A program made the position numbers and the translations under genes. The notes beneath the pieces were generated by a model. The model made no database searches. It had not been told where the DNA came from and worked only from the letters and a program-made list of their open reading frames with translations. From positions 558,001 to 622,000 of the forward strand of contig JAQTXZ010000001.1 of assembly GCA_028688515.1 (NCBI GenBank): DNA of 64,000 bases, in the 5' to 3' direction. Each line of letters starts with the position of its first letter. The stretch's first letter is position 1. Source of the stretch: Patescibacteria group bacterium (GTDB lineage Bacteria > Patescibacteriota > Patescibacteriia > 2-12-FULL-60-25). Of this stretch, positions 1,976 through 53,093 are shown in pieces.

Positions 1976-2806
1976 CTATCTATCTAATCGCTTTTTATCT
2001 TGCGGTTTCTTCAAATAATTTATTTTGGATACCACGGACCTCCCGATTTGTTTTTCCAGTTCCTTTCTTGCAACAGCCGCCACATTGCCGCCCGTTCTAG
2101 CATCGTCGGCAAGTTCGGATAAACCCTTTGAATTCTTGGTCGTATGCAGCTCGGTCGTGGAACGTTCCCCGAGCATTGTGAAGATCAGCTCAAAATCATC
2201 CATGTGATCGCGGAGATTCTGACGTTTGAGTCCTTTAAGCTTCTTGTGTTCGCTTGGAGTGACGCCGAAAGTTGCTTTGGAGATTTCAGCTGTGAGGATT
2301 TCGTAATCTCTGTCTTGCTGGGCTCCTCGTTTCTGCCATTCGTCCGTCAGCTCCTCACGAATCGCAATGCCACGCACGCGCTTCTCGATCCAATCTTCGC
2401 TATAACCCTTCAGCTTATAGAGCATTCGCGTCCGCTTAGTCGCCAATTCCGGATTCTCAATCTCTTGGACGCGCTCATAACCTACCTTAGCAAGCCAGCG
2501 TTTGAACGGCTCGGCTTTTGGCGATGGGATGGATTGGATGATGCGGAAAATACCCTCGGTATCGGCGCAGTCTGTTTCGTATTTTTTGCCGTCAGACGAC
2601 TCCAATTTCAGTTGCCGACAAATTGTCGACAACTCAATGCCATCCTCGTTTTTTACGCGCACTTTCATCACATACCAATAATCACGCGGTTTAGTGCTAT
2701 CCGTAAGCGCTTCAATTACATCCACAACCGAAAACCACCATTCATTGTTATGAAGCGTCTTCCTTATTTGTTTGCCCTTGAACAAGGCGATTTGGCTAGT
2801 CTCCAT
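1976..2806 (-). CDS. Bro-N domain protein (phage antirepressor-like)
   Basis: The N-terminal 100 residues match the Bro-N fold: FKGKQIRKTLHNNEWWFSVVD, then a D-x-x-D/YW pattern and LSTICRQLKLESSDGKKY. A charged helical C-terminal part of about 170 residues follows. Bro-N proteins are DNA-binding antirepressor-like proteins first known from phages and viruses and now widespread in bacterial chromosomes. A TATAAT at about 2822-2827 (read on the minus strand) lies close upstream. There are no phage structural genes nearby, so this is probably a domesticated stand-alone gene. Confidence 0.75.
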   Translation of the reverse strand: METSQIALFKGKQIRKTLHNNEWWFSVVDVIEALTDSTKPRDYWYVMKVRVKNEDGIELSTICRQLKLESSDGKKYETDCADTEGIFRIIQSIPSPKAEPFKRWLAKVGYERVQEIENPELATKRTRMLYKLKGYSEDWIEKRVRGIAIREELTDEWQKRGAQQDRDYEILTAEISKATFGVTPSEHKKLKGLKRQNLRDHMDDFELIFTMLGERSTTELHTTKNSKGLSELADDARTGGNVAAVARKELEKQIGRSVVSKINYLKKPQDKKRLDR

Positions 2807-2924
2807 AATGTTTATTCAATATTATACACAGCGTATATTTATAGCCTAGCACATGTTCTAGTTTTGTTCTAGTCGGTTTTGTGAACAAAACCATCCCCTC
2901 GTCCCAATACTGCATTGGATGCGA

Positions 2925-3560
2925 TTAAGACCCAAAAAGATAATCCGCCGCCTGTCTTAATTTACTTTCAAATTTTTCATCCATAGCAAAAACTTTATAC
3001 CCAAACTTATTTGCCTCTTTTTCGAGCAACTGACTATACAGCGCCACCATCTCGCCGATTTTTAAAAAAGTACCTTGCTTTTTAGTGCCCAAAAGCATCC
3101 AGTCGTTTGGAGTGGTGCTTTTATTCACGTCCTCTGCAAACTTATACTTATCATGTTTGACCAAGAAAATCGCTTTAAAATATTCACGACCATACTTTTT
3201 TGCCAGTTTTTGTATTAGACTGGGCACGATATGATAACCCTCGATAATATAATCATTACCGTCTTTTATTTCACAAATCGACATCATATCAATAGCCGTT
3301 GCAGTAGGTCTTGCTTGCTTGTATAAAACATCCACAATTGTTTTTGGGGAATAAGCCTCGTAAAAAGCATCATTGCCCCGATGCTTTCTTCGTAACTTTG
3401 AATACGGATGCGTTTTATCCCATTTTTGCTTGCCCATGTACGCTCCTGCGATCACTTCTAACGTGTCGCACGAAATCCATGGAATGCCTAATTTCTTCGA
3501 AGCAAATTTTGCTAATGTAGTTTTACCGCTGCGTGGCGGACCGCCTATCAGATAAATCAT
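2925..3560 (-). CDS. P-loop kinase-like ATPase
   Basis: A 211-residue protein opening with MIYLIGGPPRSGKTTLAK, a Walker A motif directly at the N-terminus as in small-molecule kinases (2-phosphoglycerate kinase or AAA_33-like). DYIIEGYHIVPSLIQ is in the position of a nucleoside/phosphoryl acceptor site. Substrate unknown. The start is supported by a TATACT box 6 nt before ATG 3560, which implies a leaderless mRNA. Confidence 0.7.
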   Translation of the reverse strand: MIYLIGGPPRSGKTTLAKFASKKLGIPWISCDTLEVIAGAYMGKQKWDKTHPYSKLRRKHRGNDAFYEAYSPKTIVDVLYKQARPTATAIDMMSICEIKDGNDYIIEGYHIVPSLIQKLAKKYGREYFKAIFLVKHDKYKFAEDVNKSTTPNDWMLLGTKKQGTFLKIGEMVALYSQLLEKEANKFGYKVFAMDEKFESKLRQAADYLFGS

Positions 3561-3566
3561 AAATAT

Positions 3567-3572
3567 AGTATA
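3567..3572 (-). promoter_or_regulatory. -10 box for leaderless P-loop kinase mRNA
   Basis: TATACT read on the minus strand, separated from ATG 3560 by exactly 6 nt, so transcription should begin at or next to the start codon. No good -35 hexamer is visible. Confidence 0.5.
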
Positions 3573-3596
3573 GCTTAAAGAATCGATCGACGCACA

Positions 3597-4565
3597 TCAT
3601 CCCAACACCGCGTTAAACAGATAACCTGTAAAGATAATCCCCGCACCGACGACGGAGGCGAAAATTAAAATCAATTTTGGTTTCATGACTTTTTTAAGGA
3701 TCATGAATTCCGGCAACGATAAGCCGGTGACCGCCATCATAAAAGCAAGCGTCGTGCCGATGGCAACGCCTTTTTCGGTCAGGACTTTGACGAGCGGAAT
3801 GACGCCGGCCGCATTGGAGTATAAAGGGATGCCAAGCAGGGTCGCAAATGGCACGGCATACCATCTGTCCGCGCCCGCATAAGACGCTAAAAAGTCTGTG
3901 GGGACATAGCCGTGGATCCAAGCACCGACGCCTACGCCGACAACAATGTAAGGCCAGACTTTTTTTAATATATCCAATGTGTACTCAATAGCCCTCTCGT
4001 ATCTAGCCCTCATCGTCATCTTTTGTATAACGATATTATTCTTTGTTCTATTCTTCAAAACAAAATCTTCGAGCAGATGTTCGATATTCATCTTGCCGAT
4101 TGCGATGCCGGCAAGCGTAGCAATCACGATCCCGCTGAATGCATACAAAAGCGCGATCTTCCAGCCGAACAATCCAAATAGCAAAACGAGCGCCACTTCG
4201 TTTACCATTGGCGACGAAACCAAAAACGAAAATGTCGCTCCAAGCGGAACGCCTGCTTCTACAAAACCCAAAAACAAAGGGATGGCGCTGCAAGTGCAAA
4301 AAGGAGTCGCAATGCCAAAGATCGCGGCAAGCAAACTTGCCAGATAAGAATTTTTGCCCGCAAGAAAAAGCCTGACTTTCTCCGGCGGCAGATAAGTCCG
4401 CAAATACGAAACAATAAAGATTATGACAGACAAAAGTAGGAATATCTTTATAGTGTCAAATATAAAAAAATCCACCGCATCGGCCAGCAATGTTTTTTCG
4501 GTGATATGGAATACGCCGTAAGTTAGCCAGTCCGCAAACCACTGAATAGGGGCAAATAGCGACAT
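3597..4565 (-). CDS. Permease of the DUF318 (YraQ/ArsP-like) family
   Basis: A 322-residue polytopic membrane protein with about 8 helices. It carries the family signature around residues 85-100 (TPFCTCSAIPLFLGF) and LVSSPMVNEVAL, plus a second half with GIPLYSNAAGVIPL. DUF318 proteins include the organoarsenical exporter ArsP, but most members have no known substrate. It starts 2 nt after the stop of the thioredoxin-like gene, so the two are co-transcribed; this pairing of a DUF318 permease with a small redox protein is common. Substrate not predictable here. Confidence 0.8.
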   Translation of the reverse strand: MSLFAPIQWFADWLTYGVFHITEKTLLADAVDFFIFDTIKIFLLLSVIIFIVSYLRTYLPPEKVRLFLAGKNSYLASLLAAIFGIATPFCTCSAIPLFLGFVEAGVPLGATFSFLVSSPMVNEVALVLLFGLFGWKIALLYAFSGIVIATLAGIAIGKMNIEHLLEDFVLKNRTKNNIVIQKMTMRARYERAIEYTLDILKKVWPYIVVGVGVGAWIHGYVPTDFLASYAGADRWYAVPFATLLGIPLYSNAAGVIPLVKVLTEKGVAIGTTLAFMMAVTGLSLPEFMILKKVMKPKLILIFASVVGAGIIFTGYLFNAVLG

Positions 4566-20520: not shown

Positions 20521-21990
20521 TTAATCGTGCATTTCGTAAAGCCGCTTCGTCCATTCTAATACTAACTTTTTCTGCGGCTTGTGATTCTTATCATCAAACC
20601 TCCCCTTCAATTGTTCGTCAAAAGCTTTTTGCAATAATTCCCCCATCTTTTTGCCCGGCTGGACTCCCAAACACAGCAAATCTTTTCCCGTAAGCAGGTT
20701 AACCGGCGGCGTATCGAGAACGTGTAGTTTTTTGGCGATGGACGTCACTTTCTGCGTTCTAGCACGACCGACAATTTGTTCAACAAGCGACGCAATATCT
20801 TTTAATGTCAAAGCTTCATCAACCTGCGCAATTTGAAACGCAAGACGCCTTACAAATTCATCTGACAGTTTCTTAGACTTCATATCAACCATGACTTTCA
20901 GCATAGCCACGACTTGATTCGTCACCTTGTTTGAACAGTTTATTTGCCGCAAAAAAGCAGTTACGTCTGTTTTTCGCATGCGATGACATAATGCGACGAG
21001 CAAAAATACTTTTATTGGATCCCCGGGTCTCGTCGAACTCGCCCCCTTCGATAAACTCAGGGCATGAGCTTGTCGAATGCGAGGATAACAAAGGACGGCA
21101 ACGTGGTCGACAACGATCTTCGTCACCTTCCAATCAGACTGACTCATTTTGGCGAGTGAAGGGTGAAGTCGTGCAAAAATTCCAAGTTGACGGCCGGCCT
21201 CCAAACCCACGCTCGGCTTTGGTGCTTTGAGCAACAATTTTGTCCATTCCTCCCCCACTCTCTCTTTGGCCAAATGTTTGAGACTGATTTTGCGACAAAG
21301 CTCGATCGTTTTCGGGTCAACTTTAAACCCAAAACGACCCGCGAATTGCATAACGCGCAAGACCCGAAGCGGATCGTCGCCAAAGCTCTTTTCGTCAACC
21401 GCACGCAATAAACCGGACTTCAAGTCTTTTTGACCGCCGTGGGCGTCCATCAGTTCTCCCGTTAAAGGATCGTAACCCATCGCGTTAATCGTCAAATCTC
21501 GGCGCTTGGATGCCTGTTCAAACGTCAAATCAGGCTGACTTATAACTTTCGGCTTTCTTCCCATTCCGGGCCGCGTTCTCGAGTCTGTGCGCGGAATCGC
21601 TATCTCAACTCCGCCAAGGTTAAATACGCCGAATTGTTGGCCGACTTCTTTCAGAAATATCCCGTCCTTAAAACGTACAGAGGCGTCCTTCGAACGTCCT
21701 GAAACGTCCTGAAACGTCCTGAAACGCGATAAATCAAGTAGAATGCGTTTGAGAACAGACTTATTCAAGCCAAAAACTTCCATGTCAAAATCTTTCACAT
21801 CTGACTCCTTAAGGACGTTCGAAGGACACTTTGAGGACACTTTGAGGACACTCGCCATCAACGAATCCCTCACCGCTCCGCCGACGATCAAGGCTCGACC
21901 TTCGAATGTTTTGACGCGGCGTGCAATCTCAATAACCAAAGGCCACTGCGGGTTTTTGCTTAAAATGACTTTGATTGCTTTAGAATTCAT
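20521..21990 (-). CDS. cca: CCA-adding tRNA nucleotidyltransferase with in-frame repeat insertions
   Basis: A class II nucleotidyltransferase: ALIVGGAVRDSLM, the catalytic DFDMEVFG, IPRTDSR, and RRDLTINAMGYD followed by helical RNA-binding domains. Length (489) exceeds typical bacterial enzymes. Three segments look inserted: a tract between GGAVRDS and DFDMEVFG, one after LLDLSRF, and a third reading HALSLSKGASSTR. The first two come from a stuttered inverted repeat (21673-21727 and 21805-21851). The third comes from a dispersed repeat (21034-21084). The frame stays open, so the enzyme is probably functional. Repairs or adds tRNA 3' CCA; all tRNAs here already encode CCA. Confidence 0.88.
   Translation of the reverse strand: MNSKAIKVILSKNPQWPLVIEIARRVKTFEGRALIVGGAVRDSLMASVLKVSSKCPSNVLKESDVKDFDMEVFGLNKSVLKRILLDLSRFRTFQDVSGRSKDASVRFKDGIFLKEVGQQFGVFNLGGVEIAIPRTDSRTRPGMGRKPKVISQPDLTFEQASKRRDLTINAMGYDPLTGELMDAHGGQKDLKSGLLRAVDEKSFGDDPLRVLRVMQFAGRFGFKVDPKTIELCRKISLKHLAKERVGEEWTKLLLKAPKPSVGLEAGRQLGIFARLHPSLAKMSQSDWKVTKIVVDHVAVLCYPRIRQAHALSLSKGASSTRPGDPIKVFLLVALCHRMRKTDVTAFLRQINCSNKVTNQVVAMLKVMVDMKSKKLSDEFVRRLAFQIAQVDEALTLKDIASLVEQIVGRARTQKVTSIAKKLHVLDTPPVNLLTGKDLLCLGVQPGKKMGELLQKAFDEQLKGRFDDKNHKPQKKLVLEWTKRLYEMHD
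21034..21084. repeat. Dispersed repeat encoding LSLSKG inside cca
   Basis: The tract reads, on the coding strand, as a palindromic unit producing ALSLSKGA. The same LSLSKG-encoding repeat is well known in unrelated environmental bacterial genomes. Confidence 0.7.
21673..21851. repeat. Stuttered inverted repeat inside cca
   Basis: A tract of acgtcctga-like words at 21673-21727 and of gaggacact-like words at 21805-21851. CCTTCGAACGTCC (21688-21700) is exactly complementary to GGACGTTCGAAGG (21813-21825). The arms flank the codons for the catalytic DxD motif. Confidence 0.75.
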
Positions 21991-22537
21991 AGATAAAAAG
22001 TTTTTGTCCTAAAAGTTTCGGATCTCGTTTAAGGCCAATGACCTCTTTCGGTTCTTTCTTGGTGAAAGTGAAATCGCAAGAAACGACTTTTGCGCCGGGC
22101 TTGAGTTCTTTTTGCAACTTTGGCAACAAGTCATTCATCAGCGCAGGAAAAAGGTAGACAAAAATTTTATCCGCCTTCGACAAATCTACTTTAAAAAAAC
22201 TTTTTCGAATCAACTCGATATTACTCGCTGACTTTCGCGACTTGTACTTGGCAATAAAATACGGCAGCCATGAACGTTCGACGCCGATAAACTTTGCATT
22301 TGACGCTTGCACCTGACATGCGAGCAATACCTTACCATCGCCGCAGCCTAGGTCGTAAACCATTTCACCGGATTGGACGTCCATCGCTTTGACGATGTTT
22401 GGCAACACGTCCGTCGGCATTGGGATGAATGGCGCGCGCGTCAAAATCAAACTCGACTCCCAAAAAAAGACAACAACTACGACAGCCATCAAAAAAGCAA
22501 AAAGCAGGAAATATGGAATGAGGATTAACCAGGGCAT
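21980..22537 (-). CDS. Membrane-anchored class I methyltransferase
   Basis: One N-terminal helix (MPWLILIPYFLLFAFLMAV...) anchors a Rossmann methyltransferase with motif I VYDLGCGDGKVLLA and a following acidic residue in FIGVERS. Such TM-methyltransferase fusions are frequent in Patescibacteria. ATG 22537 is preferred since it begins at the helix. The 3' end overlaps the cca start by 11 bp, suggesting co-expression. Substrate unknown. Confidence 0.75.
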   Translation of the reverse strand: MPWLILIPYFLLFAFLMAVVVVVFFWESSLILTRAPFIPMPTDVLPNIVKAMDVQSGEMVYDLGCGDGKVLLACQVQASNAKFIGVERSWLPYFIAKYKSRKSASNIELIRKSFFKVDLSKADKIFVYLFPALMNDLLPKLQKELKPGAKVVSCDFTFTKKEPKEVIGLKRDPKLLGQKLFIYEF

Positions 22538-22638
22538 GCCCAGTATGATATTGCATTCAGAGGTTATTGGCAAAACAAAGAGCGCACCCGACGGCGTGGA
22601 GCAAGATGTGCTCTTTGCCGCGCGGATGCGCGAGTAGA

Positions 22639-22929
22639 TCAGCCTGGCGACTTCGGGAATACGACGTTCGCTAGCTTGACTCGCAAGCTATCGTACTGCA
22701 CATCTTCTCCCTCGAAGTTCGGCATATGCCTGTTCGTGCCTCCCTCGACCTCCGCGACTGTTTCCGGGCCGAATTCCGCAAGAACCTTCGCGGAAAATTT
22801 CGTGGGCTCACGCGTGCCGCGCTTTGGCTCTTTGGAGATGAGGACGATCGTCCCCTCCTCCCAATCCTCTTCCAACACCCGAAGGGTTGGAAGGACTCGA
22901 GTCACCAAATTCTCCCAGTAAAACTTCAT
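22639..22929 (-). CDS. Island gene: hypothetical 96-residue protein
   Basis: Starts MKFYWENLVTRVLPTLRVL after the Shine-Dalgarno AGGAG (6-nt spacing), which decides ATG 22929 over the upstream in-frame ATGs. Acidic, GC-rich codon use, no signal peptide or known domain. It is the last gene of the 25.7-22.6 kb island and follows element copy A. Function unknown. Confidence 0.6.
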   Translation of the reverse strand: MKFYWENLVTRVLPTLRVLEEDWEEGTIVLISKEPKRGTREPTKFSAKVLAEFGPETVAEVEGGTNRHMPNFEGEDVQYDSLRVKLANVVFPKSPG

Positions 22930-22944
22930 GGCCATCTCCTTATA

Positions 22945-23092
22945 AAGACACGGCTCGCCTAGCCGCAAGGTGGATCTGTTTGATCCGATCGGAAAGCATG
23001 AGGCTCATGTAACATACATGCTCCTGTTCTCTGATCGGATGCCGGAGCGTGTGACGCGTCACGGCAAGCGAGGTTGAGGTGGAAGGAACGGC
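22945..23092 (-). ncRNA. Intercistronic structured element, copy A
   Basis: Read on the minus strand. A GCCG/CGGC stem encloses GTGACGCGTCAC (23041-23065). A long arm closed by ATCCGATC/GATCGGAT (23033-23040 with 22983-22990) follows. Next is hairpin GGATC-AAACA-GATCC (22972-22986), which shares bases with the long arm, and finally CGGCT-AGGCG-AGCCG (22951-22965). It ends about 16 nt before the Shine-Dalgarno sequence of the downstream gene. See copies B and C. Confidence 0.65.
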
Positions 23093-23127
23093 CGCGCGGG
23101 GATGAGCGTCGAATAGGAGAACCTAGG

Positions 23128-24057
23128 TCAACCTATCTTAATGTCGCCGGAGCCCAAACATTGCTTGATGACCTTGGCCTTGACTCTGAAGACGTTGATG
23201 TCGCCCGAGCCCAGCACGGACAACATTGCAGTGTCAGCCACGCCGCCAAAACGGAAGTCGCCCGTGCCCATGACCTGCACATTGAGTGTAGTCACTGTGC
23301 CGGACATCACCCTGATGTCACCAGAGCCCATGATCTGCGCCTTTAGCGGGCCGTTGATCTCGGAGATGTGCACGTCGGTGTCGCCGAAAATCTCGATCGT
23401 CGCTCCTCGCATGCGCCCGCAGTTGATCTTACCGCCGCACTTGGTGCTCACGTTGAGACTTCCGTCCACGTCCCCGATCGTCGCGCTGCCGTACGTGTCA
23501 TCAAGGGTGAGCCCGGTACCACGTGGCACCTTCACCATGATGGTGGCGAGGTTATCGGCCGAGACGCTCCCGCTGACCACGGTTACGTTGCCGCTTGCGA
23601 TAGTCAAACTGCCGACGACACTACCGCTCACGGACACACTAGAACTACCGCGGCTGCCACGGATGCTGACGCTCGAGACACTTGCACTACCTCCCTCGAT
23701 GAAGAGCGTGGAGCCGTCGGCCTTGGCAATAATGGCCTCGAGTGCGCCCTTCGGGCCGGACATGGTGACATCCATACCGGACTGACAGACCTCGACAACG
23801 ATGTTGGCGGCGAGATTCGAGAACCGGAGGTCGGTGGTCGAGAACCGCATCGGCCCCTTCGTCACCCTCTCCTCCCCGGCCTCGCTACCGTCGCCCTCAC
23901 CGACCCGGATGCTGCCACGGCCTCGGTTGTCGACTGCCTTGGTGCGCACATCGCACGAGCTGCCATCGGCGAAGGTGATGCGGGAACCGTTGATACTGAT
24001 CGATCCAGGCTTGTCGGAGTAGACGTTGGTGCCGTTGACGTTTGCAACCTTCTTCAT
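23128..24057 (-). CDS. Island gene: beta-helix (DUF2807/DUF4097-like) protein
   Basis: A 309-residue Gly/Ser/Val-rich protein with parallel-beta-helix repeats such as MSGPKG, GSGDIRVMSG, MGTGDFRFGG, and LGSGDINV, as in the head-GIN/DUF4097 adhesin-like families. No signal peptide or membrane helix is seen, so export by a Sec route is not supported. A weak AAAGGG ribosome site precedes ATG 24057. It lies 12 bp after the zinc-ribbon-like gene, in the same operon. Function unknown. Confidence 0.65.
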   Translation of the reverse strand: MKKVANVNGTNVYSDKPGSISINGSRITFADGSSCDVRTKAVDNRGRGSIRVGEGDGSEAGEERVTKGPMRFSTTDLRFSNLAANIVVEVCQSGMDVTMSGPKGALEAIIAKADGSTLFIEGGSASVSSVSIRGSRGSSSVSVSGSVVGSLTIASGNVTVVSGSVSADNLATIMVKVPRGTGLTLDDTYGSATIGDVDGSLNVSTKCGGKINCGRMRGATIEIFGDTDVHISEINGPLKAQIMGSGDIRVMSGTVTTLNVQVMGTGDFRFGGVADTAMLSVLGSGDINVFRVKAKVIKQCLGSGDIKIG

Positions 24058-24069
24058 GTTTTTGCCCTT

Positions 24070-24342
24070 TCATCCGAAATAGCGCGATTCCGCGTGCTCA
24101 TCAATGACAGCGTCGAGCTCCTCGTTGCCGACCCGACAACCAAAAACGAAGGCTGGCGTGTAAAAACGATACTGCCACGTTTGGATGCGGTTGTCATCGA
24201 GGCCGTAGTCACGCCCCCGCTTCCACTCAGCCATCGCTGCCTCGTCGATCACCGGGCAGCCTTCGTTGTGCAGCCCTTTATGACCTTCGACGTGCCGCGG
24301 CGGGTGCCAGCAATACTCGCACCGTTTTTCTTGATCAGACAT
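24070..24342 (-). CDS. Island gene: small Cys/His-rich protein
   Basis: A 90-residue protein starting MSDQEKRCEYCWHPPRHV, with CxxC followed by HxxxH and GCP, spaced as for a zinc-binding fold. Start ATG 24342 is fixed by the Shine-Dalgarno GAGGAGG. Element copy B lies immediately upstream. It might be a nucleic-acid or protein-binding zinc protein; no family is recognised. Confidence 0.6.
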   Translation of the reverse strand: MSDQEKRCEYCWHPPRHVEGHKGLHNEGCPVIDEAAMAEWKRGRDYGLDDNRIQTWQYRFYTPAFVFGCRVGNEELDAVIDEHAESRYFG

Positions 24343-24359
24343 CGCGTCCTCCTCAAAAG

Positions 24360-24482
24360 AACCAACGGCACTCCCTGCCGCAAGGTGGATCTGTTTGATC
24401 CGACCTGAAAACACAAACTGCTTTATGATTTCAGGTCGGTGCCGGAGCGTAGTCGCTCACGGCGAATGAGGTTGAAAGGGAC
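24360..24482 (-). ncRNA. Intercistronic structured element, copy B
   Basis: Same order of stems as copies A and C on the minus strand: GCCG-GAGCG / CGCTC-CGGC (24441-24463), CCGACCTGAAA/TTTCAGGTCGG (24400-24410 with 24429-24439), GGATC hairpin (24387-24401), and CGGCA-GGGAG-TGCCG (24366-24380). Two stems carry compensatory changes relative to copies A and C (T-A to A-T in the last hairpin; T-A to C-G in the long arm). Confidence 0.7.
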
Positions 24483-24489
24483 GATTAAG

Positions 24490-25209
24490 CTAAAGAAGAT
24501 TCGCATCGCGGAATGCGGGTGTCGCGTCACGACGCATCACGCCAGTGACAAGCTCCGAAAATTCCTTGATGGTCAGCGGCGCACCCTTGATCTTCACATT
24601 TTCATCGGTATTCCTCAAAATCTCACGGACATTGTCAGGAGTGAGACCGAGCGAGCACAGGCCCTGGACGAGCTTGGTAGATTCGCTCTCGGAGTGAATG
24701 CACGGACTGGTATCGATATCGTGTCCTTGGCTATTGATGAACTCCAGGATCTTCGTGACATCGACACTGACAAACTTGCAGAACCCTTCCTCGAGGTTGT
24801 AGTTAAACTCGACCCTGCCTTTGAACCACTCGTGTAAACCCTCGTGCACCATCATGACTTGCGAGGGCAACTCTGTTACCGGCGCGCAATCGGAGCAGGG
24901 CAATGCATGCTTCTCATAGCTGTACAGGCAGATATAGCCGTAGTCCGCGTAAGGAGATGCTCCACTAGAACAAGCGCCATCTTGTGAGACATGAATTGTG
25001 ACCGGTGAATAGTCAGGCATCAGGTCTGAACCAGTATAGTCAACGAGTGCCCTTGCGGCCTTTCGGATGCCCTCCGATTCTTCCGTGAGCTGATCCGGGG
25101 TGCATTTCTCACAGACTATGTCGCTATCAGCCAGGCCTTTGTACTGGCCATACGCCTGACTACCGCACCCTAGCAAAACGAACATCAGAACCAAAAATAG
25201 ATTCTTCAT
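24490..25209 (-). CDS. Island gene: lipoprotein with HExxH motif (putative metallopeptidase)
   Basis: A 239-residue protein with a lipoprotein signal MKNLFLVLMFVLLGC (Cys 15 lipidated). The mature domain holds HEGLHEWF, an HExxH zincin motif, followed about 18 residues later by NLEEGFC, which could supply a third (Glu) ligand as in gluzincins. Several Cys pairs suggest disulfides. Start ATG 25209 is set by AAGGAG. Probably anchored on the outer face of the membrane. Peptidase activity is inferred only from the motif. Confidence 0.65.
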   Translation of the reverse strand: MKNLFLVLMFVLLGCGSQAYGQYKGLADSDIVCEKCTPDQLTEESEGIRKAARALVDYTGSDLMPDYSPVTIHVSQDGACSSGASPYADYGYICLYSYEKHALPCSDCAPVTELPSQVMMVHEGLHEWFKGRVEFNYNLEEGFCKFVSVDVTKILEFINSQGHDIDTSPCIHSESESTKLVQGLCSLGLTPDNVREILRNTDENVKIKGAPLTIKEFSELVTGVMRRDATPAFRDANLL

Positions 25210-25227
25210 GATCTTCTCCTTGAAATG

Positions 25228-25443
25228 AACCAACGGCTCACCCAGCCGCAAGGTGGATCTGTTTGATCCGATCGGAAAGCACGAGGGGGATGAATCATGG
25301 AACATAGAACATGAAGCACATAACATCCGACAGCTCGATGTTATGTGTTATGTGTTATGTGTTACATGCCCTTTGTCTCCCGCTCTCTGATCGGATGCCG
25401 GAGCGTGTGACGCGTCACGGCAAGCGAGGTTAGGGTGGAAGGA
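25228..25443 (-). ncRNA. Intercistronic structured element, copy C
   Basis: Identical core to copy A: GTGACGCGTCAC in the first stem, ATCCGATC/GATCGGAT (25266-25273 with 25389-25396), GGATC hairpin (25255-25269), and CGGCT-GGGTG-AGCCG (25234-25248). The long arm is expanded by a stuttered palindrome (about 25293-25370) of ttatgtg words. It begins 7 bp after the stop of the 25450-25686 gene. Confidence 0.7.
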
Positions 25444-25449
25444 GCGGTC

Positions 25450-25686
25450 TCACCGACAACGGCTATCGAGCTCGGCGATGAGCACGTAACCGCCAACGAT
25501 GACGATGTGCGCGGCGAGACTCGCGAGGACGCACATGCCGTACGTCGCGCTGCCGCCGACGGCGTTGATAACGAGCATGCCGATCAAGCTCGTCACGGAG
25601 ACGCTTATTGCCGCGATCAGGATGACCATAAGCACCGTCGTTACGACAAATGCTATGGCAAAGGCTCTCACTAAACCTTCCAACAT
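25450..25686 (-). CDS. Island gene: two-helix membrane protein
   Basis: A 78-residue protein with two hydrophobic helices rich in Val/Ile/Ala (MLEGLVRAFAIAFVVTTVLM... and GGSATYGMCVLASLAAHIVIVGGYVLI). A strong Shine-Dalgarno GGAGGAGG lies 7 nt upstream of ATG 25686. First gene of the island operon, under the promoter at 25766-25794. Function unknown. Confidence 0.6.
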   Translation of the reverse strand: MLEGLVRAFAIAFVVTTVLMVILIAAISVSVTSLIGMLVINAVGGSATYGMCVLASLAAHIVIVGGYVLIAELDSRCR

Positions 25687-25755
25687 TATATGCCTCCTCC
25701 AAATACAGTTATTGCACCGATTTCACTCAGCGCAGTCATTGCCTGATACAGCCTT

Positions 25756-25794
25756 TTGACGTGTCAATATAGCATAAAAATGTGGTTTTGTCAA
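25756..25794 (-). promoter_or_regulatory. Near-consensus promoter and operator candidate of the first island
   Basis: On the minus strand TTGACA (25789-25794), a 17-nt spacer ending TGC, and TATATT (25766-25771). TTGAC-GT-GTCAA (25756-25767) overlaps the -10 and start region and could be a repressor site. It drives the 25686 to 22639 operon with a leader of about 70 nt. Confidence 0.75.
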
Positions 25795-25851
25795 TCCCTT
25801 GACCTTAAGAAATAGCTTATTTAAGCCGATTTTGTGTTTAATATTCAAACA

Positions 25852-25875
25852 AAAAAGACCGGTTAGAGTCTTTCT
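25852..25875 (-). terminator. Intrinsic terminator after tRNA-Pro
   Basis: AAAGAC/GTCTTT stem with an 8-nt loop, followed on the minus strand by T-rich sequence; 3 bp beyond the tRNA 3' end. Confidence 0.55.
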
Positions 25876-25877
25876 TA

Positions 25878-25953
<76 letters not shown>

Positions 25954-25964
25954 TCGTACCAGAC

Positions 25965-26049
25965 CAATGACTAAAGACTGATGATCAATGATCGCAATAC
26001 CATCCCCCAGTCCTTAGTCCTTAGTCTTTTGTCCTTAGTCTTTTGTCTT
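25965..26049. repeat. Stuttered palindromic tract
   Basis: Repeated words of the agtcctta/gtcttttg type with complementary words (gactaaagactga) upstream. No gene is seen here; part of a family of such tracts in this window. Confidence 0.6.
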
Positions 26050-26121
26050 CCCAATGCGGTGAGATATTACCAGACCTCCTGTCCTCTGGCAAGATTTGCG
26101 ACCAACGTATAGCATTATGTC

Positions 26122-27465
26122 ATGCAACGAGACGCTTTGAAAAAACTGCATTCAACGGCCCGCATCTTAGCCGTCTTTGCCATCATCACCCTCTTTCCGA
26201 CAAACGTATCTTTTGCACAAGAAGCGACTGACACGGTTGATTACAATATACCCGGTATAACAGTCGACTCGGGCACAGCGAGTTCATTGCAAGGCTTAAT
26301 CACTCAAGACGCACAACGCTCGCAGTACGGAACTTATGAACATGCCATTGTAAAACAAGCCATCGAACAGACAGTGCAAACCGACAAAGGAGCATCTTAT
26401 CGGTTCGCGTATGCGCTGGAAATCACTTCAGGCAAAATGTCCGGACAGATTCACAGGATAGCAGTCGATCCCAAAGATATGCCTGCGGGTTTTAAACCCA
26501 AAACCGGCGACGCAGTGATTATTTATGTGCAAATAACCTCGGACACTGCGGGACCGACAATATTTTTTGAAAGTTTTGACAGACAAAATATTTTTATTTG
26601 GGTTGTCATTTTGCTGATAGTCGGGTCTATTTTGCTTGCCGGGTGGAGAGGGCTGAAACTTGTTTTCATTTCCGTCATTTCTCTGCTGATTTATAAAATG
26701 ATCGCCCTGCCGATGTTTGTCCATAGCGCAAACAGTTTATTGACCGTTCTGCTCTCAATCGCTATTTTGACTTTTTTTGTCGCCTGGCTGACAGTCGGCT
26801 GGAATAGACGTCTGTCGGTTGTTATCGCGGGCACGCTTTTGGGCAGTTTATGCTCTTACACAGTACTGGACATATTCGCCTCATGGGCGCATTTCGGCAG
26901 TCTGTTCGGGCAAACAGAGCTGTTTCGCGAAGCTCCACTATTAGATCCTAAAAGCCTGTTACTAATTGGCACCATGTTGATTCTAGGCAGCGCAATTACC
27001 AATTTGGCAATTGCAATCGCAAACGGTGTAAGTGAAATGCACGAACTTTCAAGCGCCATGAATTTTAAAGATCTGTTCAGTTCCGGGATGATAATCGGGC
27101 GCGAAAAATTATATTCGCTTGCTCCGATAATCATTTTTGCTTTTTTGGCTGCCGCCATGCTTTATTTGGCAGACGGCACTTGGGCAAACTTGCCATTGAT
27201 AAAAACCGCCAATAACGACGCCATTGCACAAGCGGTTATATTGCCGCTTGTCGGATTGTTGAGTTTGGTTATTTCTATCCCGGTTATTTCTTTTTCCGCA
27301 TCCCTTGCTTGGACGCGGCTATTTAACAAATCAGATCCAATGCGCAGAGCCGTCAGTTGGAGACAGGAGAAGATTACGATCGAGATGGATTCTCGCCTAC
27401 GCAAGAATGACATGATAGGCGAGGATGACAAAGGTTACGAGAATTACGAATCTGGTCAGTTGTAA
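26122..27465 (+). CDS. YibE/F-like membrane protein
   Basis: A 447-residue protein with a signal peptide, a periplasmic-side beta domain (residues about 30-150), and 7-8 membrane helices of the YibE/F family (LLIVGSILLAGWRGLKLVF; LGSAITNLAIAIANGVSEM). The last 25 residues (MDSRLRKNDMIGED...) are not part of the family. They are translated from a dispersed repeat of the ggattctcgcc...gaatgaca type, and the stop lies 10 bp inside the convergent gene. Transport role is suspected for the family, with no established substrate. Confidence 0.75.
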   Translation: MQRDALKKLHSTARILAVFAIITLFPTNVSFAQEATDTVDYNIPGITVDSGTASSLQGLITQDAQRSQYGTYEHAIVKQAIEQTVQTDKGASYRFAYALEITSGKMSGQIHRIAVDPKDMPAGFKPKTGDAVIIYVQITSDTAGPTIFFESFDRQNIFIWVVILLIVGSILLAGWRGLKLVFISVISLLIYKMIALPMFVHSANSLLTVLLSIAILTFFVAWLTVGWNRRLSVVIAGTLLGSLCSYTVLDIFASWAHFGSLFGQTELFREAPLLDPKSLLLIGTMLILGSAITNLAIAIANGVSEMHELSSAMNFKDLFSSGMIIGREKLYSLAPIIIFAFLAAAMLYLADGTWANLPLIKTANNDAIAQAVILPLVGLLSLVISIPVISFSASLAWTRLFNKSDPMRRAVSWRQEKITIEMDSRLRKNDMIGEDDKGYENYESGQL

Positions 27466-47737: not shown

Positions 47738-49171
47738 CTACGGACTAGTGACCGTGACCGTAGCGTTGTCGTCGACCTCGTTCTTAACCTCAGGGTTGCC
47801 GTAGACCGGCAGCGCGACAGTGTTCTGCCGCGGCTTTGCAGGCTCGCGACCAAACTCGTAGCCGAGCAGCAGCCACGCATTCTCGTCGAAATGCGCAGCG
47901 CGCTGATTGCCCATCTCCTCCGGGCGGGGAGGCGCGGCGTTAGTCACGCCGAGCCCGAGCCTGGCGCCGATGAACCACGGGTTGGCCGGGTTGAAGGTGT
48001 ATCGGATCTCGGGAAGCAGTCCGTACCAGTTGGACGTTCCGTTCTCGAACGTCGTGGTGCGGAACGACTTGCCCGCTGCCATGAGCAGCAAATCAGTCTG
48101 CGGGCCAAGCGCGGCGTTCAAGCCGAACGCCGTGTGAACCTCGACCATGTGATGGTCGTAGAACCGGTTGGCGTAGCCGCCGCCGACACCGGCGACAAAG
48201 CCGAGATCGCGCGAGCCGAACAGTCTGCAACCGAGTTCAAGTCCCTCCGACCCCTGAAAGTAGTCGAAGTTCTTGTTCAAGTGCAGCTCGCCGTAACCCG
48301 CGAGCCAGCAAGGCAGACCCCGGCCGCGTACCTCGTACTCTCCGGGCAGAGCCTCTGGGCGGAGCCCCGTACCACGTACATCGTTCTGACTGCCGGACGG
48401 GATCTGAGCGAGGCGACCTTTGATGCCGGCGATGTCGCGCGTGTTGGTCTGCTGACCTCGCTCGAGGTCGTTGACGCGCTCGACCAGGGCGTTGTACTGC
48501 GAGATGATCTTGTCCGCACGAGTGCGGACCTCATCCATCTTGCCGTTCGCCGTGTTGACGCCGTCGCGAATCTGCGTGAGTTGTTTGATCAACTCCGTCA
48601 GATCGACATTGGTCGTCGGTGACTTGCCTTGCTCGAGCGCCGTGACTCGCCTCTCGAGATCCTCGATGCGCTTAAGCGCATCGCGGTACATCAAGCACTC
48701 CTCGATAGTGGTTCGTGCTCCGTGAGCGTCGACCGTTACCGTCTTGGAGTACAAGCCGCCTTTCAGCTCGCAGCGACGCTTGTAGCTCATCGCGGGCGGC
48801 TGGTTGTGCCGCACTTGCGGCGGAGTCGTTGTCGGCGTCGTGCCGGTCGGCGGAGACGGCGGCGTGACCTGCGTGGGAACGCAGGACTGCGGACACTGCA
48901 ATGACGGGTTGTCGATGCAGGCCGAGAACCACGCCTGGTACTCGTCGAACTGTCCGTCTGTGACGCCCTGACATTCAGGCAATGCGCTACATTTGCCCTT
49001 GAAGTCGGGCTCGCGGCTGAGGCACATGTTGTACTGTGCCCCACACGCTCTCGCGCATGCCGCCGGGTTGGCGACGACAGGTTGTGGTGTGGACGCCGTG
49101 GGCTGTGCGTTGGCTGACCCTGCGAAAAGCAGGGCCAAGCCCATGATGATGGTGAAAAGTGCTCGTTTCAT
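47738..49171 (-). CDS. Secreted protein with coiled coil and probable beta-barrel tail
   Basis: A 477-residue protein with signal peptide MKRALFTIIMGLALLFAGSANA. The N-terminal region is Cys-rich (CARACGAQYNMCLS), followed by a Pro/Thr linker, a coiled coil (residues about 160-260, RIEDLERRVTALEQGK), and an alternating-hydrophobic C-terminal half (YGELHLNKNFDYFQGSEGLE; GLLPEIRYTFNPAN) like an outer-membrane barrel. Strong Shine-Dalgarno GAGGAGG. GC-rich. Barrel fold is inferred from pattern only. Confidence 0.65.
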   Translation of the reverse strand: MKRALFTIIMGLALLFAGSANAQPTASTPQPVVANPAACARACGAQYNMCLSREPDFKGKCSALPECQGVTDGQFDEYQAWFSACIDNPSLQCPQSCVPTQVTPPSPPTGTTPTTTPPQVRHNQPPAMSYKRRCELKGGLYSKTVTVDAHGARTTIEECLMYRDALKRIEDLERRVTALEQGKSPTTNVDLTELIKQLTQIRDGVNTANGKMDEVRTRADKIISQYNALVERVNDLERGQQTNTRDIAGIKGRLAQIPSGSQNDVRGTGLRPEALPGEYEVRGRGLPCWLAGYGELHLNKNFDYFQGSEGLELGCRLFGSRDLGFVAGVGGGYANRFYDHHMVEVHTAFGLNAALGPQTDLLLMAAGKSFRTTTFENGTSNWYGLLPEIRYTFNPANPWFIGARLGLGVTNAAPPRPEEMGNQRAAHFDENAWLLLGYEFGREPAKPRQNTVALPVYGNPEVKNEVDDNATVTVTSP

Positions 49172-49227
49172 CCCATTCCTCCTCGTAGTGGAGCTTTAAG
49201 CTCCGTTTTTCCGATGGGTATGACTTG

Positions 49228-49257
49228 TATTTACGCAAAATTAAGCGAATTTGTCAA
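49228..49257 (-). promoter_or_regulatory. Promoter of secreted coiled-coil protein
   Basis: On the minus strand TTGACA (49252-49257), 18-nt spacer, TAAATA (49228-49233). Confidence 0.6.
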
Positions 49258-49439
49258 GACCCCCTCATCCCAAACCGGAGCCCTCTATCCCCCATCCCCT
49301 TTCTCCCACAGATGCAGGAGAAAGGGGCGAAATTAAGAACCCCTCTCCTGCAAGCGTGGGAGAGGGGCAGGGCGTAAAGCCCCGTGGGGGCCACGCCCCT
49401 CTACGGGGGTGAGGGCGTAGCGGTGGTTGGGACAAATTT

Positions 49440-49478
49440 AAAAGCACCAGCAGATTGAGCGTCCTGTCTGGTGCTTTT
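49440..49478. terminator. Bidirectional terminator
   Basis: AAAAGCACCAG / CTGGTGCTTTT stem with a 17-nt loop, in the transcript downstream of the 49574-51019 gene. Confidence 0.7.
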
Positions 49479-49573
49479 CGGTTGGGTGTAGCCCTTCCGA
49501 TAGTTGAGAGTTTTTTCGTCAGTCTCTGCTCACGTGTGTGAGACTGACGGGTGAAAAGAGCGAGGGATTCGAA

Positions 49574-51019
49574 TCAGAGCGAGCCGACCACCTGCCCGTT
49601 CTTGTACGGGTACAGGCACTGCCCGACGCAGTTGGGGTCCGGGTTGCACCCCGAGCAGTTCAGATCCGGCGCGCCGTTCGAGATGAGCACATACTGCTGC
49701 TCGTTCGACGCATTCTCCGAACCCTCGTAGATGTACATCGTTCCCAGCGTGTGCCCGCATCCGCTTCCGGTGGCACAACTCGTGTCGCCCCAGTACTTCC
49801 CGTTCGGGAGAGCATTCTGGAACTCGAAGAGCGTGCTGCCGTGGCGGACCTGGAACGTGCACGAATACTTGCCGGACGCGACCTGGGTCATGTCGCAAAT
49901 CTTTGCCCAGCTGCGCGGAGGCTCACACGGAGGCTGCCACCAGCCGTCGAGCCGGTGGTTGCCCGTCGCCGGTGAATTCACGATAACCGCGACGATGGTG
50001 TCGTACTCGGTGGGGCCGTTGCATTCGCTTCCACCCGAGCCACCCGTTCCACCGCTGCCACCCGCGCCGCACGTGTTCCAGACCGCGCCGTTGTTGTCGT
50101 CGCAGTCGTCGTTGCTTGCGACGTAACCCGCGGGGGGCGTGGTCGACGTGGACTGGAGCGGCTGGCTCGCATTGCCGTGTCCGTCCCCGTCCGCATCGCG
50201 GTAGTAGGTGTAGGTCACCGTGCCGCAACCCTGATCGATCTGCCCATCGCAGTCGTCATCGATGCCGTTGCCGCAGGTCTCGGACTTTCCGGGGTTGATG
50301 TTCGGGTTACTGTCGTTGCAGTCGCCCGAGTTGTTGACGTAACCCGCGGGAGGCGAGGGGTACTGCGCGCACTGCGCGGGATCACCATACGTGTCACCGT
50401 CCGCATCGCGACAGTACGTGCCAGACACGGTCTTGCACTGGCACTCACCGAAGCCGGCGCCAGTATCCCAGCACCACTTGGTGCCGTCGTGGCTCGGACA
50501 CTCCTCGTTGCACGAGTATGACTGGAGCGGCGTGCACACCTGGCCGCTTCCGCCCGTGCCGCCGGTTCCGCAGCCCTCGTCGATCTGCCCGTTGCAGTTG
50601 TCGTCGAGGCCGTTGCTGCAGATCTCGGTCATGCCCGGGTTCACGTCGTGGCGGTTGTCGTCACAGTCGTTACCATTACCGACGAACCCGGACGGCTGCG
50701 TTGTCTGGTTGTACAGGCAATCCGCAGCGTTGCCGTAGCCGTCGGCGTCGGCGTCTCGACAGAAGGTGCCGGTCGGAAGCGGGCACTGGCACGTGCCATA
50801 CCCACTGCCGTCCTCGTAGCACCACTGCGAACCAGTGAGGCCGCCCGGACAAGCACAGTCGTGAACCGCATGCGGCTCACAGGCCGTTCCGCCCGTCCCG
50901 CCGCTGCCGCCTTCGCCTGCCGTGCCGCCAGTGCCCTCGGGATTCCACCTTGCGGTGTCCATCGAGCATCCGCCGACCACTGCCGCGAGAATCGAAACCA
51001 ACCAAACGAGCTTCTTCAT
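49574..51019 (-). CDS. MopE-like metal-binding-repeat lipoprotein
   Basis: A 481-residue protein. Lipoprotein signal MKKLVWLVSILAAVVGGC is followed by Gly/Thr-rich linkers (GTGGTAGEGGSGGTGGT) and repeated putative metal-binding motifs: CRDADADGYG...DCDDNRHDVNPG...CSNGLDDNCNGQIDEGC, seen about three times. The C-terminal 130 residues are a Trp/Cys-rich beta domain resembling starch-binding-type folds (STLFEFQNALPNGKYWGD). ATG 51019 is set by GGAGGA. The style is common in Myxococcota, suggesting transfer. Confidence 0.8.
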   Translation of the reverse strand: MKKLVWLVSILAAVVGGCSMDTARWNPEGTGGTAGEGGSGGTGGTACEPHAVHDCACPGGLTGSQWCYEDGSGYGTCQCPLPTGTFCRDADADGYGNAADCLYNQTTQPSGFVGNGNDCDDNRHDVNPGMTEICSNGLDDNCNGQIDEGCGTGGTGGSGQVCTPLQSYSCNEECPSHDGTKWCWDTGAGFGECQCKTVSGTYCRDADGDTYGDPAQCAQYPSPPAGYVNNSGDCNDSNPNINPGKSETCGNGIDDDCDGQIDQGCGTVTYTYYRDADGDGHGNASQPLQSTSTTPPAGYVASNDDCDDNNGAVWNTCGAGGSGGTGGSGGSECNGPTEYDTIVAVIVNSPATGNHRLDGWWQPPCEPPRSWAKICDMTQVASGKYSCTFQVRHGSTLFEFQNALPNGKYWGDTSCATGSGCGHTLGTMYIYEGSENASNEQQYVLISNGAPDLNCSGCNPDPNCVGQCLYPYKNGQVVGSL

Positions 51020-51352
51020 GATCGTCCTCCGAAGTCTTCGCGGCGCTGTGAGCGACCGCGGTTCATTGCGAGCGTTTGACTCAACGACAACATGTCGTTT
51101 TGTCTTCCCCTCCTTGTCCAAGATGCCGTGAACTCTAAAGGTCCGGATCTCAAACAATAATAGTAGTGCATCCTCTTTATCCATCACTGCATCCAAGATA
51201 AGGAGGGGAAATTTTTTATTGCAAATTGTCAATCAACATCTGCACAAACTAGTTATGCAGCGACATGAATCATCAAGTTATCAATGACTCGTGTCGGGAG
51301 AGGCAGAAAAGGAGTGGTTACCTTTTGCTGCCTCAAGCCGAGGGAGACTGGT
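51020..51352. other. 333-bp intergenic leader region
   Basis: No gene is supported. It contains a possible TTGCAA-18-TATCTT promoter (51195-51224, minus) and a leader of about 170 nt with hairpins CGACA-ACA-TGTCG (51085-51097) and GAG-CGTTTGA-CTC (51070-51082). Confidence 0.45.
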
Positions 51353-52579
51353 TCAGAGAATGTCTGCCGCCCAGTCGATGGTGATGCCGCCTCCGAAGAG
51401 TGCGGACTGTTGGTTGGTGTGCGCAAGGCCGTCATCGCTAAAGTAGATGACCTTGTGGGTTCCGGTGACCATGCCCTTCACACCGATGCCCAGGTACGTC
51501 CCCGGGATCGAGTAGTGTAGGCCGAGCGTTCCACCGAACATGGTCCCCAAGAAATTGGGGTCGCTCGCGCGGAACACCTGGTCGATCTTGAACCCCAAGG
51601 CTCCGGTCAGCGCCTTGTCGTCGCTGAGAGCAAGCATGAAGCCGCCCTCTGCGCCGCCGTGGTACGCCGATCCCTGCCCGCCGGTCGACGGATCAATTCC
51701 GTCGCGGTACATCAGACCAACGAAGCCTTCGGCGTAGTACCCAGCCTTGGACGCCGGGAAGAACGAGTGGAAACCGACCTTGAGGCCGGGAGCCACCGCG
51801 ACTCCCGCGTCGCCCATGCCGAGCACCCACAGCTCCGCGCCCAGAACGAACTGAGGCTTGCTGTCGCGCAGGTCGGCGACGTCCTGCCTGAGATCGCTGT
51901 AGAGCTTGTCGAGTGAACGGATGATCACTGTTACGTTCTCGAGCTTGGCGTCAGCATTCGCCGCCATCTGCTTAGCCTTGTTAAGCTCGCTCCAGATGAT
52001 CGCAATCTGCCCGGTCTGCCAAGCGTCCAGGTTGCTCTGTTGCTCGAGATACGCCCTGAACTCCAACTCGAACTCGTCGAGCCGAGTATGCGCCTTCTCA
52101 AGACTATCGAGCGTCACCTCGACGAAGTGCTCGTTTGCTGAGCACTCGGACACCACGATCTGATGCATGATGCCTCTGACGGTGACGTACTTCGGTTGCC
52201 GCTTGAGCACAGGCGTAGTGTTGACCTTGTCATGACAACAATCCTGCGGATCGTCGACGTCGCGGCCATCCACACACTGATATTGCGGCGGGCTCCATTC
52301 GGGTTTCTTGGCCGGCGGAGGTGCGACGGTCGGCTGAGCGAGAGCGCAAGGCGCTCCGCCGCAGTTGACCGTCACGTTCACGTTGCAAGCAGCGCGACAC
52401 GCAAGCGGGACATCCCCGACTCTGCATGCCTCCTGCGTCGCAGCCGACGCGCCGTAGAACACGGCGCACTGTCCCGAAGCTGCCGGCGGCGGGTTTTGAG
52501 CCCACGCCGGGTTGAGGTTGATGACCAAAGCGCACGCAAACGCGAGCGCTGCCCACAAGACGACACTCATCTTCTTCAT
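51353..52579 (-). CDS. Secreted protein with coiled coil and probable beta-barrel tail
   Basis: A 408-residue protein with signal peptide MKKMSVVLWAALAFACALV...AWA. A Cys-rich N-domain (CRVGDVPLACRAACNVNVTV) is followed by a coiled coil (residues about 155-245, SLEKAHTRLDEFELEFRAYL) and a C-terminal half with alternating strands (VLGAELWVLGMGDAGVAVAP). Same three-part plan as the 47738-49171 protein but little sequence identity. ATG 52579 follows GGGAGGAG; the longer frame to 52945 is not coding. Confidence 0.65.
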   Translation of the reverse strand: MKKMSVVLWAALAFACALVINLNPAWAQNPPPAASGQCAVFYGASAATQEACRVGDVPLACRAACNVNVTVNCGGAPCALAQPTVAPPPAKKPEWSPPQYQCVDGRDVDDPQDCCHDKVNTTPVLKRQPKYVTVRGIMHQIVVSECSANEHFVEVTLDSLEKAHTRLDEFELEFRAYLEQQSNLDAWQTGQIAIIWSELNKAKQMAANADAKLENVTVIIRSLDKLYSDLRQDVADLRDSKPQFVLGAELWVLGMGDAGVAVAPGLKVGFHSFFPASKAGYYAEGFVGLMYRDGIDPSTGGQGSAYHGGAEGGFMLALSDDKALTGALGFKIDQVFRASDPNFLGTMFGGTLGLHYSIPGTYLGIGVKGMVTGTHKVIYFSDDGLAHTNQQSALFGGGITIDWAADIL

Positions 52580-52592
52580 CTCGAGCTCCTCC

Positions 52593-52642
52593 CTGCCCTC
52601 GCGGGGCAGACTGTTGATCTGCCCGCTCCTGACAAGAGCAGG
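52593..52642 (-). promoter_or_regulatory. Leader with mutually exclusive hairpins
   Basis: In the minus-strand RNA, GGGCAGA (52618-52624) can pair with TCTGCCC (52604-52610). That strand can instead pair with GGGCAG (52593-52598), 6-7 nt before the Shine-Dalgarno sequence. A third stem, CCTGCTC/GAGCGGG (52622-52642), shares bases with the first. Competing pairings near a ribosome-binding site suggest attenuation or translational control. Confidence 0.5.
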
Positions 52643-52886
52643 TTTTTTCCCTCGGTAAATAGTCAAAGTACTGGACATGCACCATGCACGCCGTACGAAT
52701 TGCATGTAACGAGTAACGTGTAACGACAGACCGTCCGGCGTTTCGCGATTCGAATTTCGCAATTGTGATACGGGGCACGATGCGGCCCTAGAGTCGTCCT
52801 GCACTGCATGAGAAGAGGAGGAATACTTCCCAAACAAGTACAGAACGACTTCAGAGTCGCACCTTCTGCCATTTAAAGGACATGTG

Positions 52887-52915
52887 AATATAGCACAAAA
52901 CAGCTTATTTGTCAA
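52887..52915 (-). promoter_or_regulatory. Near-consensus promoter of the second island
   Basis: On the minus strand TTGACA (52910-52915), a 17-nt spacer ending TGC, and TATATT (52887-52892), the same form as the first island's promoter. Gives a leader of about 300 nt before ATG 52579. Confidence 0.75.
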
Positions 52916-53093
52916 GAGCTGCATAGTCCTTAAAGTCCATGACAATGTATCTAATCTAGGACTTTATAGACTTTACGGACTCGCGGGTTCTTGTCTGGAA
53001 GTACCTTAACAAAGCGGTGAAAATAGTAAATAAGAAATCCCCCAATTCGACGCTGCGCGTCGAATACCCCCCTTTGACAAGGGGGTCGCCAAA

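Follow-up and report, generated by a model that had tools for sequence, protein, structure and literature searches.

Repeated structured seams join unrelated genes in a variable gene island of a Patescibacteria group bacterium

A GC-rich gene island lies within a 64,000-nucleotide stretch of the genome of a Patescibacteria group bacterium (hereafter the window; C4:558001-622000); this genome, of 1.29 Mb in four contigs, is 99% complete. Five open reading frames (ORFs), mostly of unknown function, stand in a row on the minus strand, as do the other island features and its borders, each ORF having a start codon, a stop codon and a Shine-Dalgarno sequence. The GC content of 22639-25686 is 0.561, against 0.463 in the rest of the window (a second GC-rich stretch excluded), in agreement with the original prediction of a GC-rich, five-gene island read in one direction. 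Gene 1 (25450-25686) encodes 78 aa with, by eye, two hydrophobic helices. Gene 2 (24490-25209) encodes a 239-aa HExxH lipoprotein-like product, in which an HEGLH motif and an LLGC lipobox-like N-terminus were recognized by eye; its predicted structure is poor (predicted local distance difference test, pLDDT, 57), and the model yielded no fold match at E ≤ 0.001. Gene 3 (24070-24342; 90 aa, pLDDT 70) encodes a CxxC...H..C protein whose Cys and His residues are conserved among homologues. The product of gene 4 (23128-24057; 309 aa) is of the beta-helix type, as had been proposed, but DUF2807 fits it better (Pfam E 2.5e-7, over the cut-off) than the DUF4097 family first named, which stayed below its cut-off. 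Gene 5 (22639-22929; 96 aa) is an orphan. The five proteins are without significant similarity to one another (best E 0.09).

The predicted near-consensus promoter, TTGACA-17-TATATT with the TG of an extended -10 element, was found at 25766-25794 and is one of eight such copies in the genome. A 12-nt palindrome (TTGAC-2-GTCAA; 25756-25767) overlaps the end of the -10 box; it is not shared by the genome's other promoter copies, and its designation as an operator is therefore unsupported. At the other end, a terminator-like hairpin of the intrinsic type, with a T run (22569-22619), closes the array, and a similar one occupies the same place in the sister species G034. We think it likely that the five genes form one transcript. 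A tRNA-Pro(cgg) gene (25878-25953) and a DOT1-like methyltransferase gene (21980-22537) border the slot in which the island sits. When the island was examined as a possible tRNA-borne element, a repeat of the tRNA end of at least 14 nt was absent from 22300-26200, and an integrase family was not found among the five genes.

What distinguishes the island is the content of its gaps. Genes 3 and 4 are separated by 12 nt, and each of the remaining three gaps is a homologous copy of a single element, here called a seam: E1 (25213-25444), E2 (24348-24480) and E3 (22936-23088). The earlier description of every spacer as either very short or a structured element thus holds. The copies form repeat families of 66 nt and 71 nt with 70-93% identity, and include a 24-nt core in three exact copies, where zero are expected by chance. 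E1, E2 and E3 start 5, 9 and 39 nt, respectively, after the upstream stop codon, and each ends at the Shine-Dalgarno sequence of the next gene. These three copies, all within the array, are the only ones in the genome; with up to three mismatches, the core was not found in the other 40 genomes of the family, nor in any viral contig. A single match to the core pattern among genome contigs (Rhizobium) was dismissed as chance, the similarity not being seen beyond the pattern and the context being unrelated.

As full copies, all three seams are more stably folded than dinucleotide shuffles of themselves (z of -4.4 for E1, -6.0 for E2 and -2.8 for E3; 0/200 shuffles in each case). Four local hairpins can be drawn in the copies. 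In hairpin II, ATCCGATC/GATCGGAT pair in E1 and E3 and CCGACCTGAAA/TTTCAGGTCGG in E2, while hairpin IV is formed by GGCT/AGCC or by GGCA/TGCC, so that in both the pairing is kept through two-sided changes. The loop of hairpin II in E1 carries a long insert (25270-25380) of tandem TAACACA-like units with an imperfect inverted repeat, which is absent from E2 and E3. A long-range form in which the two ends of the seam pair is near in energy for E1, equal for E3 and clearly worse for E2; as DNA, E2 and E3 give several local hairpins on both strands. Against Rfam 15 the seams had no match, and only the tRNA exceeded its gathering score in 21900-26400.

Arrays of this kind recur across the genus. 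The promoter pattern TTGACA-N13-16-TGNTATAWT had 8 matches in this genome and 88 across nine genus genomes, against one match to the reversed pattern used as control. Seven of the eight copies in this genome drive an ORF of 58-62% GC; a special regulon of GC-rich genes was nevertheless rejected, as some copies in the genus seem, by eye, to drive ordinary RNA genes or other ORFs. The 80 further genus sites and six more of the genome itself gave 86 loci, from which L208 and L209 were excluded for runs of N. To count as a seam, a direct repeat had to span 45 nt or more (E ≤ 1e-8), with both copies mostly non-coding and an ORF between them. By this fixed rule, seam repeats were present at 13 of the 84 promoter-driven loci and at none of 63 control stretches (Fisher p 6e-4). 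Three of the 13 (L152, L182 and L218) were admitted by the rule alone; the arrays inspected closely include L199, L225, L179, L214, L159, L187, L233, L173, L226 and L185. Like the island, L199 combines three seams with one two-gene unit, and L233 is a second array of this same genome, with a different seam. Seams are private to their arrays: the module measures about 60-230 nt, and no sequence is common between arrays. A motif following stop codons, CTTCC[CA]AC, is weak (21/148 GC-rich ORF tails, against 9.9 in shuffles; 4/48 ordinary tails).

Three other loci deserve mention. The repeat of L172 (G031:C14) is of another kind and was not counted as a seam: its two 136-nt copies (about 706-1406 and 1905-2864 from the promoter end) differ mostly at the adenines of one copy and are followed by a reverse-transcriptase-like ORF, an arrangement that by eye looks like a diversity-generating retroelement. 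Behind a 629-aa GC-rich ORF, L152 (G028:C5) has a tandem duplication of 667 nt with 98% identity (2481-3843 from the promoter end). The second GC-rich stretch of the window (47738-52945) has the same promoter type (52887-52915) and three large ORFs; G031 (L171) and G034 (L216) have relatives of two of these, likewise preceded by this promoter. Seam repeats were not found in it by the fixed rule.

Sister species provide the evidence on how such arrays change. In three pairs of orthologous arrays, the members differ by one, two or three whole genes exactly at seams. The smaller array of each pair has a single mosaic seam, whose left half corresponds to the first seam of the relative and whose right half to the last. 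Two genes of G031 L179, of 109 and 125 aa, are absent from L205 of G034, whose single seam agrees on the left with the first G031 seam (32/39 informative columns) and on the right with the last (52/59); the break falls within 14 columns, and none of 10000 permutations reached this fit, also when the comparison was gap-free. Conversely, L214 of G034 has a 97-aa gene that L170 of G031 lacks (left 15/22, right 24/27; 10/10000 permutations). The third pair involves three genes (90, 113 and 486 aa), present in L226 of G035 and absent from L159 of G029 (left 34/39, right 13/18; 1/10000). The crossovers lie within shared core sequence, the outcome expected from plain homology. Each mosaic is what recombination between two seams of a larger array would leave, to judge from the sequences, and gain by the reverse route would be possible; the three mosaic seams, with one, two or three genes missing, thus point to seams as the crossover places for whole-gene gain and loss.

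A fourth array, in which one seam is orthologous in G033 (three copies), G031 (two) and G034 (one) and the genes between differ, bears on the fold. Pairing is kept here in 95.2% of cells, compared with 42.9-50.0% in slid versions, the covariation score is reached by 2/500 shuffles, and a helix covers GGGAG near the start codon (columns 168-172). Such a helix, together with stable structure ending at the Shine-Dalgarno sequence, would suit seams that are primarily cis-regulatory RNAs, riboswitch-like or acting by translational coupling, with one signal or the upstream ribosome controlling the whole array and recombination a side effect. The predicted fold of E2, which pairs the post-stop tract with the Shine-Dalgarno sequence, would suit it as well, and this pairing is present in all of E1, E2 and E3. 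It was, however, stronger than pairing with mid-seam segments in just 22 of 41 seams (p 0.55), so that coupling by this route is not supported generally, and no Rfam family matches the seams. We regard a primarily regulatory role as quite unlikely.

The slot of the island is itself variable, which supports reading the island as accessory: at the same place, between tRNA-Pro/yibE and the methyltransferase gene, sister species carry different genes. The G034 slot has the same promoter and one small ORF ahead of its terminator, the G033 slot one AT-rich gene, and the G032 and G030 slots other genes; in G028 the tRNA is without an adjoining methyltransferase gene. In G031 the slot contains three or more genes, and behind each lies a copy of a different structured element. 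Its three copies are all in that array, and a search by a long pattern found it in none other of the 41 genomes; a 58-nt part of it recurs at 96.6% in the G034 leader. The tRNA-Pro gene has the same orientation as the neighboring yibE in G033 (L010), G034 (L009) and G030 (L015) and the opposite one in G000 (L008), G028, G032 and G035. A 545-aa ORF in the G032 slot (L054 2053-3690, G032:C35), large-serine-recombinase-like by eye, runs into the tRNA-Pro gene.

Outside the island its genes live apart. Homologues were found in two other genomes of 380 for gene 2 (G199 and G037), in three of 380 for gene 3 (G101, G262 and G030) and in two of 41 for gene 4 (G020 and G035), and gene 5 had no match among the other 379 genomes; these searches covered genes 2 to 5. 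The matches for genes 2, 3 and 4 thus fall in seven different genomes, and in no case do two occur together. In G101 and G030 the gene 3 homologue is a solitary gene, with a TTGACAAA promoter and a hairpin leader of its own. Blastn gave no match in plasmids or phages that would indicate such an origin, and genes 2, 4 and 5 had no relatives in viral contigs. Because the genes do not co-occur elsewhere, a conserved five-gene system is rejected, and the suggestion of one functional or envelope-related system is not supported; among the genomes searched, no second one has two of the genes, and what recurs in the genus is the array as such. Homologues that are rare, scattered and never paired suggest instead that the array was assembled from genes living apart elsewhere.

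The same distribution weighs on an explanation by tandem duplication, according to which units of gene plus gap were multiplied, the genes diverged beyond recognition, the gaps were kept alike by gene conversion or selection, and the losses are plain direct-repeat deletions. Paralogous units do exist inside single arrays, with one gene pair in L199 at 35% identity and another in L061 at 39%, and all three gain/loss events can be read as deletions. The island proteins, however, are mutually dissimilar; homologues of genes 2, 3 and 4 are apart in other genomes, so unrelated genes did come together; and full divergence of the genes beside gaps kept at roughly 70-97% is improbable without some further cause. 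Duplication and divergence may explain some arrays (L199, L061) but hardly the island, and as a general account we consider it unlikely.

We therefore postulate, as the rather probable reading, that the island is a seam-linked gene array, in which structured intercistronic RNA modules, near-identical within one array, double as recombination homology. One strong vegetative-type promoter and one terminator would delimit the common transcript of unrelated accessory genes, with each long gap serving as a module made up of (i) a hairpin behind the upstream gene and (ii) a structured leader with the Shine-Dalgarno sequence for the downstream gene. As a seam would end the gene before it and start the one after it, any two genes so joined would keep a working 3' end, a ribosome-binding site and expression; and as the seams of one array are near-identical, they would be natural crossover places. 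Recombination between two seams would remove or add whole genes and leave one intact mosaic seam. Such recombination probably occurs, judging from the sequence comparisons, and is more readily understood as homologous (RecA-type) than as site-specific, since plain homology suffices to explain the crossover step. The island itself was presumably built in the same way. From their structure and position, the seams also appear to act as RNA in expression, through 3' protection, as leaders and possibly in processing.

Several points weigh against this reading. The island's own seam was found in no second genome, so gain and loss are unobserved for the island array itself. Deletion between direct repeats is ordinary, and the model does not account for how unrelated genes first acquired a common seam. 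Taken by itself, the 3' half of E1 is not more stably folded than its shuffles (z -0.86, 35/200); in the orthologous G033/G031/G034 seam only 3/21 pairs show double changes, a level reached by 35/500 shuffles; and the mosaic of G031 L170 against G034 L214 (A10) weakens to 482/10000 when gapped columns are left out. The seam rule was fixed after the first arrays had been seen, the control stretches were without GC matching, and some promoter loci overlap each other.

In small-genome bacteria of this kind, little is understood of how the many orphan genes arrive and turn over. Should the proposal be true, a promoter followed by a repeated intercistronic module would be a simple rule for finding variable gene arrays, the swapping of whole genes would be explained without broken expression and without an integrase, and orphan-gene turnover would become directly testable.

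No description of such arrays in bacteria was found in the open-licence PMC literature, searched by title and start of abstract, but several known systems resemble them in part. Integron cassettes place unrelated genes behind one promoter; their attC sites fold as one long imperfect hairpin and have core boxes of consensus RYYYAAC and GTTRRRY. Integron cassette arrays and clusters of attC sites lacking integron-integrases (CALINs) are gene-site-gene arrays (PMC9668308). The island is likewise gene-site-gene and cassette-array-like, but its seam is multi-hairpin and includes the downstream Shine-Dalgarno sequence. The seams could on this analogy be attC-like single-stranded sites of an integron-like system, used by some Xer/integron-type recombinase encoded in the genome. 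The layout, the single promoter, the short 5' ends and the array-private seams would agree with this; a stem enclosing an AAC/GTT core can be drawn from the ends of E1 and of E2, and for E3 local and long-range folds are in balance. A candidate enzyme is encoded at L111 655-1470 (G000:C2), a 271-aa tyrosine recombinase scoring 206.7 bits with the integron-integrase model and 215.9 with XerA (cut-off 220). Both attC boxes, however, are absent from E1-E3 on either strand, the predicted fold is mostly several hairpins, and the crossovers lie in cores of shared sequence, as plain homology predicts. PF00589 matched the genome at eight places, none of these tyrosine recombinase matches being inside the window; among the five ORFs scanned (two further places were without a clean ORF), the 206.7 bits were the best TIGR02249 score, under the cut-off of 265. 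Although an integrase is not required for a CALIN, the absent boxes, the lack of an integrase over the cut-off and the several hairpins per seam place the island outside integrons and CALINs, and we consider an attC-like function most unlikely. Somewhat less so, yet still improbable, is a cassette system without integrons, in which the array-private folded seam would serve every gene as its intercistronic RNA and also be the place where a dedicated recombinase exchanges genes, entering genes being fitted with the seam and the identity of the array written in it.

Repetitive extragenic palindromic (REP) sequences, miniature inverted-repeat transposable elements (MITEs) and bacterial interspersed mosaic elements (BIMEs) have copies dispersed in the genome; the E element and the G031 slot element, by contrast, are not dispersed, each having three copies, all inside its own array. 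Among the early genes of phage T7, RNase III sites are structured elements between the genes of one transcript. The seams are like them in being structured intergenic elements that could separate and protect messages, although for seams processing is only proposed.

Two phage systems come closer. The start-associated sequences and their extended form (SAS/ESAS) of cluster K mycobacteriophages are described as repeats found where translation of some of the genes begins, about half of them immediately preceded by inverted repeats (PMC3203893). Seams, as hairpins with a Shine-Dalgarno sequence at translation starts, resemble these in kind only: by that account one 13-bp repeat serves a whole phage genome, whereas each array has its own module, which is chromosomal, fills the gap between genes and is tied to gene gain and loss. 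As seams share no sequence between arrays, descent from SAS/ESAS is not claimed. Conserved boundary sequences have been proposed for phage mosaicism, and a phage pair is described for which deletion and exchange by general recombination both fit (PMC3029335), as they do for the arrays here. In the phage case the boundary is a short common sequence at gene borders and not, as in the island, a folded module repeated within one bacterial array; in both, such a sequence offers a crossover place for homologous exchange, and crossovers inside a shared boundary are what the three sister-array mosaics (one of them weak when gap-free) display.

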